From the IMG/VR virus record IMGVR_UViG_3300030061_000368, positions 1-29,767 of that record: 29,767 nt of DNA. One strand, written 5' to 3'. Made by a program: the position numbers and the translations under genes. The notes beneath the pieces were generated by a model. The model did no database searches and had not been told where the DNA came from. It worked only from the letters and a program-made list of their open reading frames with translations. Below, piece after piece: positions 4,779-8,978 of the stretch (positions are counted from its first letter, which is position 1; each line of letters begins with the position of its first letter). This stretch comes from a virus.

Positions 4779-4954
4779 CAAGATCCCCCTCCTGGAACAT
4801 AGTAATAGTAACAACTATCAACCATCACGCATCCAAACATGACAATAAAATAGATAGCAGCCAAGCATAACAAGAAAGCTACACCCTCTGCTATAAACAA
4901 TAATGTTTCTTTTATGTTCATCTTGTTTATATATTTAGTCCATATTCTGTTCAT
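4778..4954 (-). CDS. Small single-span membrane protein
   Basis: 58 residues from ATG 4954, which overlaps the stop of the serine recombinase as TAATG; a TTG two codons upstream is a less likely start. Residues about 18-45 form a long hydrophobic segment (LLFIAEGVAFLLCLAAIYFI), followed by a Cys/Tyr-rich tail. The tail is encoded over the ribosome binding site of the exonuclease. No known family. It may be an early membrane protein affecting the host, but that is guesswork. Confidence 0.6.
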   Translation of the reverse strand: MNRIWTKYINKMNIKETLLFIAEGVAFLLCLAAIYFIVMFGCVMVDSCYYYYVPGGGS

Positions 4955-5601
4955 TAGCAACCCCTTTCAAGGACATTTTTAACTGTTGTAGGGTACCAAG
5001 ATCTGTCCTTATAAGTCTTAACACCTCTATTATTTAAAGCATCTGCAATACCTTGGAATGTTTTGATCCCAGAAAGTTTGATGCCTTCAATAATATCTTT
5101 AATATCTTTTGCGTACTTATCTGCATTAGCTTTGATTGTTTCATGGCCTCTTATTCTTACCTCAGCTAAGTTAGTTAAGTTACCAAGATCAACACCCTCA
5201 GCTTTTAATCTAGCTAGAGCTGCCTTGGTCCTATTAGATATGTTTATTCTTTCCATTCTATTGATAGCTACATGGAACCCAGCTATTGCATCATCTAAGA
5301 TAGGTGTATCTAAAATATCTAATTTTATTTTACCTTTATTATCTTCCAGGAATTGTCCTACCTCATAGGTCCTACCTAATCTACTCATAGAATATGCAAC
5401 AAGTGGTACATCTAATTTCTTAGCTGTCTTAACTGCATCCTGGAATACTGGTCTATTTCTTAATAGCTTTGCTCCAGATATGCCTGGCTCTTCAAACCAT
5501 TCAATATCATATCCAGGATATTTTTTTTCTATTGCAAACTTTTGATTGTTTACATCTTGCTTGTCTGTACTAACTCTTACTAATGCTACGATCTTAGGCA
5601 T
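4954..5601 (-). CDS. Small serine recombinase (resolvase/invertase family)
   Basis: 215 residues. The resolvase catalytic domain is plain: ALVRVSTDKQD places Arg9 and the nucleophile Ser11, then EEPGISGAKLLRNRPVFQ (residues 37-54), AYSMSRLGRT with Arg74 and Arg77, and the long E-helix RMERINISNRTKAALARL (115-132). The C-terminal part (about 165-215) resembles the helix-turn-helix end of resolvases (FQGIADALNNRGV). The size fits resolvases or invertases, not large serine integrases, which have 450 or more residues. Possible jobs are resolving genome multimers or flipping a segment; no paired inverted crossover sites were recognised by eye. Start has GGAG just upstream and overlaps the previous stop by 8 bases. 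Confidence 0.9.
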   Translation of the reverse strand: MPKIVALVRVSTDKQDVNNQKFAIEKKYPGYDIEWFEEPGISGAKLLRNRPVFQDAVKTAKKLDVPLVAYSMSRLGRTYEVGQFLEDNKGKIKLDILDTPILDDAIAGFHVAINRMERINISNRTKAALARLKAEGVDLGNLTNLAEVRIRGHETIKANADKYAKDIKDIIEGIKLSGIKTFQGIADALNNRGVKTYKDRSWYPTTVKNVLERGC

Positions 5602-6264: not shown

Positions 6265-6312
6265 TACTTTGCTCCTTTGTTAGTTATTATTAGTGGTCTT
6301 ATTTTGTTCATA

Positions 6313-6340
6313 TTGTTAATATAGTGATCTAATATATATT
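6313..6340 (+). promoter_or_regulatory. Rightward promoter candidate for the regulator/replication operon
   Basis: TTGTTA (6313-6318) and TATATT (6335-6340) with a 16-base spacer lie about 40 bases ahead of the ribbon-helix-helix gene. It occupies the same DNA as the leftward candidate, so the two would compete. Low-complexity AT context makes this uncertain. Confidence 0.4.
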
Positions 6341-6378: not shown

Positions 6379-6597
6379 ATGGCTAAAAATATGAAGATTG
6401 TACCATTCTATTTAAAAATCCCAGAAAAATTAAAAGATAAGATCCAGGACCAAGCTAAGGTTGAGAGAATACCTATGGCTACATTAGTCTCTGAAATCTT
6501 AGAGATGGGAATATCTATAAGACCTAAAGTTATCCAGGACCGAATAGATAAAATGCTTAACGCAGCTAGAATGGGAGGATCAAATGAGCAAGGATAA
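6379..6597 (+). CDS. Arc/MetJ-type ribbon-helix-helix regulator
   Basis: 72 residues. The pattern of an N-terminal basic beta strand (MKIVPFYLKIPEKLKDKI) followed by two helices (DQAKVERIPMATLVSEILEMGI) is that of Arc-like repressors, which dimerise to form a two-stranded sheet in the DNA major groove. A strong AAGGAGG precedes the ATG. It is the first rightward gene beside overlapping divergent promoters, so autoregulation and control of the leftward operon is the natural inference. Its end overlaps the next gene by 14 bases. Confidence 0.82.
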   Translation: MAKNMKIVPFYLKIPEKLKDKIQDQAKVERIPMATLVSEILEMGISIRPKVIQDRIDKMLNAARMGGSNEQG

Positions 6598-6967
6598 AAT
6601 AAATCCATCACACTACCAAGACAATCCAATACAAACTTTTGATGCAATAACATCTCAGTTTACAGACGCAGAGAAGATTGGAGCTATCAAGTTTAATATC
6701 TGCAAGTACATCATGCGAATGGGTAAGAAAGTTGAAACTCTTGAAGGAGCTAGAGATGATGCTGGTAAGGCTCATTGGTATCTTGAGAGATTACTCAAAG
6801 AACTAACCGACATGATTAAGAAAAAGACACCAAAGAAAAAGGCCCAGGATAAAGATCCAATGGATTTAACCGAGGCAGATCTGGAGGAACTATTAAATCC
6901 TGGAGTACACATCTATCCATTTAAACCTAAAAAGAAAGAGGATAAGAATGACAAAGATCCCAAATAA
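6584..6967 (+). CDS. DUF3310-domain protein
   Basis: 127 residues. The first 70 residues match the small DUF3310 domain: INPSHYQ, then QTFDAI, IKFNICKYIMRMGKK and a helix ending in HWYLERLLKEL. This domain occurs in many phage proteins, including the T7 gp1.7 nucleotide-kinase region, and is thought to act in nucleotide metabolism, but no reaction can be assigned to the stand-alone form. The remaining 55 residues are Lys/Asp/Pro-rich and probably disordered. It overlaps genes on both sides. Confidence 0.82.
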   Translation: MSKDKINPSHYQDNPIQTFDAITSQFTDAEKIGAIKFNICKYIMRMGKKVETLEGARDDAGKAHWYLERLLKELTDMIKKKTPKKKAQDKDPMDLTEADLEELLNPGVHIYPFKPKKKEDKNDKDPK

Positions 6968-7514
6968 TGTGATCAAGCCACCACCTGGTTATATGTATGT
7001 AAATGAAAAAGTAGAGAAAATACAAAAGTATGTAGGAACTATTCAAGGTAAAAAATATCTCTTTGAGAATGATACAAAAAAAAGAATAGAATATCTTGAG
7101 AGTAAAATGGATAAGATCTTGGATGAGCTGCGAGTATTAAAAAGAAAAGATAAATATAGACCTAAGCCTAGTGAGAGAGCTAAGAGAGTTTGGATGGAGG
7201 ATATATTGAAAGCAGTATGCAATCACTTCAATACTACTCCAACAGATATTATGTCTGAAAAAAGACAAGCTGAATTAGTTAGAGTTAGATCTGTATATAT
7301 TAATTTATGTAATGAACTTACTTATGCATCTCAACCAGCTATTGGTAGAATGTGTGGTAACAGAGATCATACAACAATCATTCATCATGTTAGATTAAAG
7401 AGAGAGAAAGCTAATTGCTGGAATATTAAAAAAGAAAGTGGAATTGAATTGTGGTCCGACTTTGGCAAACTTGAGGCAAAGCTAAAGTCAGAGGCCCAAC
7501 CAGATAATGAGTGA
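6948..7514 (+). CDS. DnaA domain IV (DnaA-box-binding) mini-protein
   Basis: 188 residues. Residues about 84-155 match the C-terminal DNA-binding domain of DnaA (Bac_DnaA_C): ILKAVCNHFNTTPTDIMSEK, then RVRSVYINLCNEL, then PAIGRMCGNRDHTTIIHHV, whose GNRDHTTI at 138-145 is the DnaA signature GGRDHTTV. The AAA+ ATPase and the DnaB-loading N-terminal domains of DnaA are missing. In their place is a 70-residue Pro/Lys segment with a short coiled coil (KKRIEYLESKMDKILDELRV). It should bind DnaA boxes without ATP-driven oligomerisation. Position next to the HTH_36 replication protein suggests a role at the phage origin or in sequestering host DnaA sites. Confidence 0.88.
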   Translation: MTKIPNNVIKPPPGYMYVNEKVEKIQKYVGTIQGKKYLFENDTKKRIEYLESKMDKILDELRVLKRKDKYRPKPSERAKRVWMEDILKAVCNHFNTTPTDIMSEKRQAELVRVRSVYINLCNELTYASQPAIGRMCGNRDHTTIIHHVRLKREKANCWNIKKESGIELWSDFGKLEAKLKSEAQPDNE

Positions 7515-8352
7515 TAAAAAGAAAGCTGATTATGGTAAGGGTAGAACACCTGGCCACTTTTGTGTACTGCCTCAACGAGCTGTAATAGATAAAAGGTTCA
7601 AGACCTATCCACGAACCTTTATGATACTTGCAGCACTTGGTAACTATACATCAAGGCAAGGTGTTTGTTGGCCGAACCAAATAACTATAGCCAGGAATTT
7701 ACATATAACCCAATCAACTGTTTCAAGACATATTAAGAAACTTATTGAGTGGGATTATATTCGTTATGCTAAAAAACATCCTGGCCTCAAAGGTAACAAA
7801 TACTTTATGGTGTTTGATCCTAAGATTAAGGAAGAGGATGCTCTTGCTATGGTACCAGATAAAGACAGATCCTATGAAGATAAACCAGAAATACATGTAG
7901 GGCCTAAAGGTGGGGATAAAAAGAAATATGCACCTAGAGTACATAAGACTGTAGTTAAGAATAGTTCTAATATGGTCTCCAGTACATATCCAGATATGCA
8001 GTCAGAGTACATGCATAACAACCCAAAGAACAATCATATATACCCTATAGTCAGAAACATATTAAATAGGTTTGTAAGAATAACCGAAGAGATTTTCGGA
8101 ACATTGGTCCAGTACACTACAGAAGATGAGAAGATGGTATCAGAATGGGTAAAGGAAGGACTTACCGAGGCCAGAGCTGTTGCTAGAATTAAGGAGATAC
8201 TATTGTGGAGAAGGAATAATAGAAAGGAATGTCCTAAAAGAATAGTGTTTTATAAGGATGTATTTAAAAGGAAACCACCACCGAGTACCAATAAGGAACT
8301 GGTACAGGATATGGTAAAGAAACTATCCAGGAAAATGAAGATGCCCAGGTAA
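7507..8352 (+). CDS. HTH_36 replication-initiator-like protein
   Basis: 281 residues. The N-terminal domain (about 15-100) has the helix-turn-helix layout of phage replication proteins: HFCVLPQRAVIDKR, then LAALGNYTSRQGVCWPNQ, then the HTH proper at 58-80 (ITIARNLHITQSTVSRHIKK) and a wing. A Lys/Asn-rich linker of about 90 residues separates it from a C-terminal helical domain with basic patches. The architecture resembles lambda O-type initiators: site-specific DNA binding in front, partner or helicase-loader contact at the back. The non-coding stretch directly downstream is the obvious candidate target. No polymerase or helicase motif is present. Confidence 0.75.
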   Translation: MSDKKKADYGKGRTPGHFCVLPQRAVIDKRFKTYPRTFMILAALGNYTSRQGVCWPNQITIARNLHITQSTVSRHIKKLIEWDYIRYAKKHPGLKGNKYFMVFDPKIKEEDALAMVPDKDRSYEDKPEIHVGPKGGDKKKYAPRVHKTVVKNSSNMVSSTYPDMQSEYMHNNPKNNHIYPIVRNILNRFVRITEEIFGTLVQYTTEDEKMVSEWVKEGLTEARAVARIKEILLWRRNNRKECPKRIVFYKDVFKRKPPPSTNKELVQDMVKKLSRKMKMPR

Positions 8353-8396
8353 CAATACATTTATAAAAAGTAAACGAACCTTTACATTATATAAAA

Positions 8397-8420
8397 GCTA
8401 GGCCTAGCAACGATTATCGT
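8397..8420. repeat. Two adjacent perfect palindromes
   Basis: GCTAGGCCTAGC (8397-8408) reads the same on both strands. One base later, ACGATTATCGT (8410-8420) is a palindrome around a central T. Palindromes of this size are typical protein-dimer sites. They lie 45 bases after the HTH_36 gene. Confidence 0.7.
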
Positions 8421-8456
8421 ACAGAATAGAACATTTGCGTACAAAGCTGGTACAAA
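8419..8456 (+). repeat. Iteron-like GTACARA direct repeats
   Basis: GTACAGA (8419-8425), GTACAAA (8439-8445) and GTACAAA (8450-8456) are spaced 20 and 11 bases start to start, close to two and one helical turns. This spacing is common for initiator-binding iterons. The units are short, so chance occurrence is possible. Confidence 0.45.
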
Positions 8457-8468
8457 AAGGCAACACCT

Positions 8469-8501
8469 TCCCCCCCTACGTCATAATATATATGGGGGGG
8501 A
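8469..8501. other. C7/G7 inverted repeat (8-bp stem, 17-base loop)
   Basis: A run of seven C (8470-8476) and a run of seven G (8494-8500), extended by one T-A pair, flank an AT-rich 17-base loop. Such GC runs are exceptional in this AT-rich sequence. It may end the replication operon transcript, although the following T run (8511-8517) starts nine bases after the stem, too far for a standard terminator. Confidence 0.6.
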
Positions 8502-8515
8502 TACTCACAATTTTT

Positions 8516-8554
8516 TTGCAATTATTTTACAAATCGTTTATTATGTTCACATAA
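8516..8554 (+). promoter_or_regulatory. Sigma70-type promoter with overlapping operator-like inverted repeat
   Basis: TTGCAA (8516-8521), a 17-base spacer and TATTAT (8539-8544) form a near-consensus promoter pointing to the gene at 8682. TTATGT-TC-ACATAA (8541-8554) overlaps the -10 box and expected start site, where a repressor dimer would block transcription. The transcript would have a leader of about 130 bases. Confidence 0.55.
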
Positions 8555-8600
8555 CTTTCTCTAGGTTAAAACTATAGTGGGTTAGTTATTTTTAGTTATA

Positions 8601-8650
8601 TAAGTGGGGTAGGCTTTCTCATCCTAGGCTAGTCAAAGCAGCTCCACTTA
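8601..8650 (+). promoter_or_regulatory. Folded 5' leader upstream of the SSB-tip gene
   Basis: TAAGTGGGG (8601-8609) pairs with CTCCACTTA (8642-8650) in a 9-bp stem with one G-T pair. Inside it, GCTTT (8613-8617) pairs with AAAGC (8635-8639); a competing pairing is TAGG (8610-8613) with CCTA (8623-8626). The element ends about 30 bases before the ATG. It could be a cis-regulatory RNA or a DNA hairpin of the origin; no known riboswitch class was recognised. Confidence 0.45.
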
Positions 8651-8681
8651 AAAAAGGAAACATAAAAGGAAAAGGAAATAT

Positions 8682-8978
8682 ATGAGTGGACCAACACATA
8701 GCAATCGTAACTATAAGGTTATGAAAGGATACAGCTTACCAGAGGGTGAGTACATCATTGAAGAATGGAACGCATCTAACTGGGATAAGGAAACAAAAGA
8801 AAGATCATCAGTACCAGGTGCTAAGGATATTAAGATCTATAAGAAAGATCCTACTAAAGATTATAACAAGGGAGATCTTGTAGCTTTCTTTAGAGTATTT
8901 GAGAATAAAGATGATCCTCAGATACCTCTTCACCAAAAATCAGCAAGTGAAGGACAATCTAGTGACATCCCATTCTAG
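8682..8978 (+). CDS. Small protein with SSB-like C-terminal tip
   Basis: 98 residues, predicted beta-rich (EYIIEEWNASNW, DLVAFFRVF), ending in a polar stretch and SSDIPF. The last four residues equal the tip of bacterial SSB (DDDIPF), which docks host proteins such as PriA, RecQ, exonuclease I and the polymerase chi subunit. The body is shorter than a standard SSB OB fold (about 110 residues) and I cannot align it with confidence. It may be a compact phage single-strand-binding protein or a decoy for SSB partners. An AAGGAAAAGGAAA stretch precedes the ATG. The gene follows the candidate origin and has its own promoter candidate. Confidence 0.7.
   Translation: MSGPTHSNRNYKVMKGYSLPEGEYIIEEWNASNWDKETKERSSVPGAKDIKIYKKDPTKDYNKGDLVAFFRVFENKDDPQIPLHQKSASEGQSSDIPF

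Follow-up and report, generated by a model that had tools for sequence, protein, structure and literature searches.

A phage protein reduced to DnaA domain IV, encoded in overlap with an O-like replication initiator, as a candidate competitor for host DnaA boxes

The gene that we call DnaA_C encodes a phage protein retaining only the DNA-binding domain IV of DnaA, and it overlaps the gene for a lambda O-like replication initiator. We tentatively read its product as a dimeric DnaA-box competitor that acts on host DNA and is co-expressed with the phage initiator, a reading that leads the alternatives while falling short of an even chance. The window, that is, the whole 29.8 kb IMG/VR record, comes from a marine, podovirus-like phage with capsid, tail tube, internal virion and terminase genes and a GC content of 34%; no tRNA and no Rfam match was detected in it. 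According to the terminase, the nearest isolate is the OM43 phage MEP301 (67.6%; PMC8024684), a kinship that suggests OM43 as the probable host. Relatives were collected from IMG/VR, some 35 through the DnaA_C protein and more through the O-like initiator, and are designated by L numbers. The features discussed below are listed in Table 1.

Table 1. Features of the DnaA_C/O-like replication region in the window
Feature	Position	Strand	Basis or remark
Promoter block GTGGTCTTATTTTGTTCATATTGTTAATATA, conserved	6293..6323		TTGTNCAY core; DnaA_C-positive phages
Arc-like (ribbon-helix-helix) gene, first of operon	6379..6597	+	PHROG 582, E 3e-4
DUF3310 protein gene, second of operon	6584..6967	+	PF11753, E 5.6e-10
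DnaA_C gene, 188 aa	6948..7514	+	DnaA domain IV only plus N-terminal coiled-coil segment; PF08299, 1J1V, model and fold search
Predicted coiled-coil helix, residues 43-67	7074..7148	+	AlphaFold helix; heptad spacing read from sequence
DnaA domain IV, residues 84-149	7197..7394	+	Profile match and alignments
C-terminal helix past domain IV, residues 163-182	7434..7493	+	AlphaFold
O-like replication initiator gene	7507..8352	+	N-terminal winged helix; PHROG 391/270/428, HTH_36
Iteron 1, ATATGCACCTAGAGTACAT	7926..7944	+	Dyad TATGNAC..GTNCATA
Block of excess synonymous conservation, candidate origin	7960..8073	+	Within O-like gene
Iteron 2, ATATGCAGTCAGAGTACAT	7994..8012	+	Other reading frame; 68 bp from iteron 1
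C7/G7 inverted repeat in gap	8470..8500		Not kept in L040
Gap core CTCACAATTTTTTTGCA	8504..8520	+	After G-run; in relatives with and without DnaA_C, with small changes
Short protein with SSDIPF end	8682..8978	+	Syntenic with annotated ssDNA-binding protein of MEP301 (gp50)

An earlier note, made from the sequence alone, had described the product as DnaA domain IV without the ATPase and helicase-loading domains, preceded by a coiled-coil/Pro-Lys segment, and both profile searches and structure prediction bore this description out. The ORF, which starts with ATG, matched PF08299 (Bac_DnaA_C) with 77.5 bits against a cut-off of 31.5 (E 7.9e-22), and was the sole PF08299 match when the whole 29.8 kb record was scanned. 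A phmmer search of the PDB found domain IV of Escherichia coli DnaA bound to a DnaA box (1J1V; E 1.6e-9), which was also the top Foldseek match of the AlphaFold model, with a TM score of 0.86 over the target. TIGR00362, the profile of full-length DnaA, was matched over model positions 340-414 of 437 only (71 bits; cut-off 344), indicating that domains I-III are absent, and profile searches including TIGR00362 detected no AAA+ ATPase domain III, domain I or helicase-binding domain in DnaA_C. A protein that has lost domains I-III is predicted to be incapable of ATP binding, helicase contact and origin opening. DnaA_C is phage-encoded, shorter than about 200 aa, and has one Bac_DnaA_C domain, at the C-terminal end; it shares the domain IV fold and the box-contact residues with bacterial DnaA but carries the predicted coiled coil in place of domains I, II and III. 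In the AlphaFold model (mean pLDDT 72.8), the domain IV helices were formed, the N-terminal helix had a pLDDT of about 77-82 over most of its blocks and was followed by a Pro/Lys linker, and the C-terminal helix contained a GxxLWxD motif that is conserved within the clade. The hydrophobic residues of the N-terminal helix (I47-L50-M54-I57-L61-L64) are arranged with the 3-4-3-4-3 spacing of heptads, and the model suggests that DnaA_C may dimerise via this coiled coil. An N-terminal IPNNV(I/M)(K/R)P sequence, perhaps a protein-contact peptide, is present in most of the clade, even in members with a very different central part (L093 and L126), and is missing from L124.

The DnaA_C sequence aligned with E. 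coli DnaA without gaps, placing R106, R114, D140, H141, T142 and T143 at the positions of R399, R407, D433, H434, T435 and T436. In E. coli DnaA, the TnCACA part of the box is read by the helix 434-451 and the TTA half by R399, and the R399A and T435M mutants are defective in box binding (PMC5742627). The window protein retains the equivalents of the contact residues R399 and D433-T436 as R106 and D140-T143. Only R106, R114, D140, H141 and T143 were invariant when 21 phage DnaA_C proteins were aligned, taken from the window's clade, from pelagiphages of the HTVC010P type, from prophages of Bradyrhizobium and from a Microcystis phage, with identity down to 23%; V90, S103, V111, S128, R134, T142 and H146 were nearly so. 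This pattern supports the idea that DnaA_C retains DnaA-box-type DNA binding; since DnaA proteins at large share DHTT and the arginines, the exact specificity is one that we infer, and the invariance is no proof of specificity for TTATNCACA.

Domain-IV-only proteins as such are already known from the annotation of pelagiphages, where they are called "DNA replication initiation (DnaA)" or "Bac_DnaA_C domain-containing", and PMC6811365 lists DnaA for every HTVC010P-related genome. The proteins of HTVC010P, HTVC035P, HTVC100P, HTVC204P, Greip and Skadi are about 170-187 aa long, with a C-terminal domain IV and the same contact residues as DnaA_C. They are 23-27% identical to DnaA_C and differ from it in the N-terminal half, and tblastn matches to this type, which started at query residue 38 or later and covered at most 74%, revealed no N-terminal homology. 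Their DnaA_C operon contains nuclease/annealing genes, with the O-like candidate in another operon; such a separate, weak candidate, gp15 of HTVC035P, exists besides DnaA_C and was counted in favour of the competitor reading. This gene (L016 4165-4845, minus strand) was deposited as a "putative transcriptional regulator" and weakly matches O-like families (PHROG 678, E 7e-4; PHROG 270, E 2e-3). The Bradyrhizobium prophages ppBjS10J-1 and ppBeUSDA76-2 (annotated as hypothetical) and the Microcystis phage Mae-JY35 ("putative DnaA") also encode short proteins in which a single DnaA_C domain lies at the C-terminal end, but their N-terminal halves and gene neighbourhoods are unrelated to those of the window. 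Among cellular genomes, a search of GTDB gave a single match, on a Mariniblastus MAG contig. No functional study of domain-IV-only phage proteins was found in a full-text search of the open-access literature. New here are the overlap of DnaA_C with an O-like gene, the coiled coil and the comparison of relatives with and without DnaA_C. It is possible, if rather doubtful, that these proteins form a phage class that shuts down host replication through the occupation of DnaA boxes: a dimerising, ATPase-free domain IV, co-translated with a phage initiator, would serve at oriC as a dominant-negative DnaA, and the reduction would have taken place in several unrelated phage lineages.

The operon runs in the order Arc-like, DUF3310, DnaA_C and O-like initiator. 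As the earlier note had proposed, the gene after DnaA_C is initiator-like: it matched PHROG 391 (replication initiation O-like) with an E value of 3.4e-10, and a Foldseek search with its product gave weak matches to the plasmid initiators 4pql, 4pt7 and RepE. The two genes overlap by 8 nt in the window and by 4, 8, 20, 23 or 26 nt across 58 of the 60 measurable loci, many of which are near-duplicates and do not represent 60 independent events. In the other two (L027 and L083), DnaA_C and the O-like gene are separated by 528 nt, with an MT-A70 methylase gene inserted in the one that was inspected. This near-constant position beside the initiator is also what one would expect of a phage-origin co-factor. 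In that reading, DnaA_C would bind DNA in or close to the origin of the phage and assist the O-like protein, whether by bending or looping or by keeping the open complex stable, and a two-protein initiator would have its box-binding part on a separate subunit. The constant coupling, together with its several different overlap lengths and the fact that domain-IV-only genes of unrelated phages lie with genes for replication or recombination, keeps this partner role, to which we give roughly one chance in three, close behind the leading reading.

The origin elements themselves bear on this alternative. As in the phage lambda O module, the window has iterons within the gene of a winged-helix/O-like initiator; it differs from lambda, which has no DnaA-domain-IV protein, in that such a protein is encoded in overlap with the initiator gene, and in that the repeats are two or three dyads. 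Synonymous conservation peaked over O-like residues 152-189, reaching 0.91 in the best 9-codon window, compared with 0.86 for the 95th percentile of shuffled maxima. Most of the DnaA_C-positive O-like genes examined contained two similar 12-24 bp elements at the same linker site in different reading frames, spaced by 44, 68 or 89 bp and forming dyads of the TATGCAC..GTRCATA or TATTC..GAATA type. When the pair was compared with synonymous-codon shuffles, the counts were 0/400 for each of L005, L049 and L089, 3/400 for L011 and 2/400 for L145; the window's own pair gave 13/400, modest when taken alone, and in some members (L003, L008 and L040) the pair was not significant alone. A few diverged DnaA_C-positive members (e.g. 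L124 and L137) lacked the repeat pair. From the PHROG matches, off-frame repeats and synonymous peak, the O-like gene conforms to a lambda-type initiator with internal iterons, and the phage origin appears to be lambda-like, with palindromic repeats inside a stretch of coding sequence under excess synonymous conservation.

Two repeats were also present in the O-like gene of L145, which lacks DnaA_C; no repeat pair was found within the O-like genes of the DnaA_C-less L106, L111, L117, L122 and L130. Because L145 keeps its iterons without DnaA_C, we assigned the repeats to the O-like protein, the likelier binder, and their presence there ruled them out as a dedicated DnaA_C site. The iteron half-sites are partly box-like (TTATGCACC in L003 and L027, ATATGCACC in the window and GTATTCACT in L049), as a phage-origin co-factor would have it, but those of DnaA_C-less phages are at least as box-like (TTATGCACT in L145 and ATATGCACA in L138). 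The DnaA_C gene showed no block of synonymous constraint, either in the window's clade or in the HTVC010P-type genes, so a cis site inside it was rejected, which likewise counts against the co-factor role. Nor was any origin element specific to DnaA_C carriers found, both the iterons and the gap core being present in phages without DnaA_C.

Counting O-like relatives at E values below 1e-20, we found 63 loci with DnaA_C, nine without it that had enough upstream sequence, and eight that were cut off. PF08299 was absent from the seven whole records tested among the nine DnaA_C-less loci, two of which are 32.8 and 33.0 kb long, and the isolate MEP301 also has an O-like gene (gp55) and no DnaA_C (PF08299). 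These nine relatives and MEP301 indicate that DnaA_C is accessory and, provided that the DnaA_C-less relatives replicate in the same way, dispensable for this origin type. The gp55 gene (L020 34057-34662, minus strand), deposited as hypothetical, encodes a replication initiator of the O-like kind (PHROG 270, E 1.3e-7) and its locus is the counterpart of the O-like locus of the window.

We searched the phage genomes for DnaA boxes. The window contained 35 sites matching TTATNCACA with up to one mismatch, compared with about 52 in shuffles, and a single exact site, in the capsid gene. Sites with zero, one or two mismatches were neither enriched nor clustered in the window or six relatives, the same was true of the other DnaA_C phages HTVC035P, Greip, ppBjS10J-1 and Mae-JY35, and none of 13 complete or partial phage genomes, whether they carry DnaA_C or lack it, had a DnaA-box cluster. 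Box counts were equally low, and again below those of shuffles, in phages without DnaA_C (MEP301 and Hodr), so the scarcity is not tied to DnaA_C and the deficit is uninformative. A box cluster adjoining the initiator, the mark of a DnaA-dependent origin, was likewise absent from the window, and the lack of clusters makes a DnaA-dependent phage origin unlikely. The suggestion of the earlier note that the protein may mark the phage origin with host-type boxes is unsupported in view of this result and of the occurrence of the likely origin elements in phages without DnaA_C. DnaA boxes are known to occur in combination with the initiator of a plasmid or phage, and the iteron half-sites are weakly box-like; however, the genome has no box cluster to bring DnaA in and DnaA_C lacks the domains that mediate DnaA-DnaA contact, making it very improbable that the phage origin obtains host DnaA through DnaA_C, in the manner of DnaA-dependent plasmids.

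The gap at 8353-8681, which the earlier note had called palindrome-rich, does contain an inverted repeat, but "rich" was an overstatement, since the C-run arm is missing from L040 and L094. The C7/G7 palindrome was rejected as a functional gap element for this reason; the neighbouring core CTCACAATTTTTTTGCA is kept in both. This core, as ACACAATTTTTT or a close variant, was kept in all nine of the nine DnaA_C-less relatives, and it was therefore rejected as a DnaA_C site. A terminator scan found no intrinsic terminator in the gap, the T-run lying too far from the C7/G7 stem.

Upstream of the operon, the conserved block lies in a divergent promoter. Its TTGTNCA differs from the DnaA box TTATNCA at position 3 alone and varies exactly at the N position of the box, and TCTYAT..TGTNCAY was found in the DnaA_C-positive loci with an aligned promoter. 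In the DnaA_C-less L130, L138, L145 and L147, the operon promoters instead carry an iteron palindrome of the TATGCAC..GTGCATA type (at about 2170-2195 in L145 and about 2208-2228 in L138), which suggests that the O-like initiator may repress its own operon in these relatives. DnaA is a known transcription factor (PMC8203912), and DnaA_C could correspondingly control its own operon or phage promoters in the manner of DnaA, with the TTGTNCAY block as an example of a target. We consider this improbable. DnaA_C has an Arc-like gene with it at every locus seen in this group, and the Arc-like loci that were found appear, from contig names and identities, to be DnaA_C-positive, so that the effects of the two at the TTGTNCAY block are inseparable; an operator before the Arc-like gene would more usually be bound by the Arc-like protein itself. 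Moreover, no such block was seen before the DnaA_C genes of HTVC010P-type phages, and some members (L003 and L027) have ATGTTCATA.

The retained contact residues, the lack of a box cluster in the phage and an origin type that apparently works without DnaA_C together point to the host chromosome as the site of action, as the competitor reading holds. A DnaA_C homodimer, built from the short conserved N-terminal peptide, the coiled coil and a domain IV still recognising DnaA boxes, would be co-translated with the O-like initiator. The latter would bind the palindromic iterons in its own gene and start phage replication by itself, and the DnaA_C dimer would occupy DnaA boxes at oriC and DnaA-controlled promoters of the host, displacing host DnaA while being unable to open the origin. 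Host helicase and replisome would thereby become available to the phage origin at the moment when the phage initiator is made. We infer the DNA binding, the action on host boxes and the timing, and oriC blocking, one of the proposals of the earlier note, is a candidate role favoured by elimination. Since one phage family exists with and without DnaA_C around apparently the same origin, the choice between an initiator and a blocker of host replication is directly testable; the DnaA-box sequence named for a comparison of binding is TTATCCACA. If DnaA_C blocks oriC, host shut-off would act on a DNA site that is among the most conserved in bacteria. A comparable factor is the initiation inhibitor YfdR, encoded by a cryptic prophage of E. 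coli (PMC4776307; PMC5742627). It resembles DnaA_C in being a prophage- or phage-encoded factor acting on the DnaA system, but binds DnaA itself, whereas DnaA_C would compete for the DNA sites of DnaA.

Other genes around the replication operons were also noted. DNA methyltransferase genes, either MT-A70 or, by sequence, apparently of the C5 type, are inserted at differing points of the operon in L027 (6530-7069), L011 (3633-4634), L111 (1396-2499) and L093 (238-1227). In the window, a gene for a small serine recombinase of 215 aa (4954-5601, minus strand; PHROG 125 DNA invertase/95 integrase) adjoins Erf-like annealing and RecE-like exonuclease genes. The short protein encoded downstream of the gap had no family match; its SSDIPF end resembles the acidic tip of SSB.
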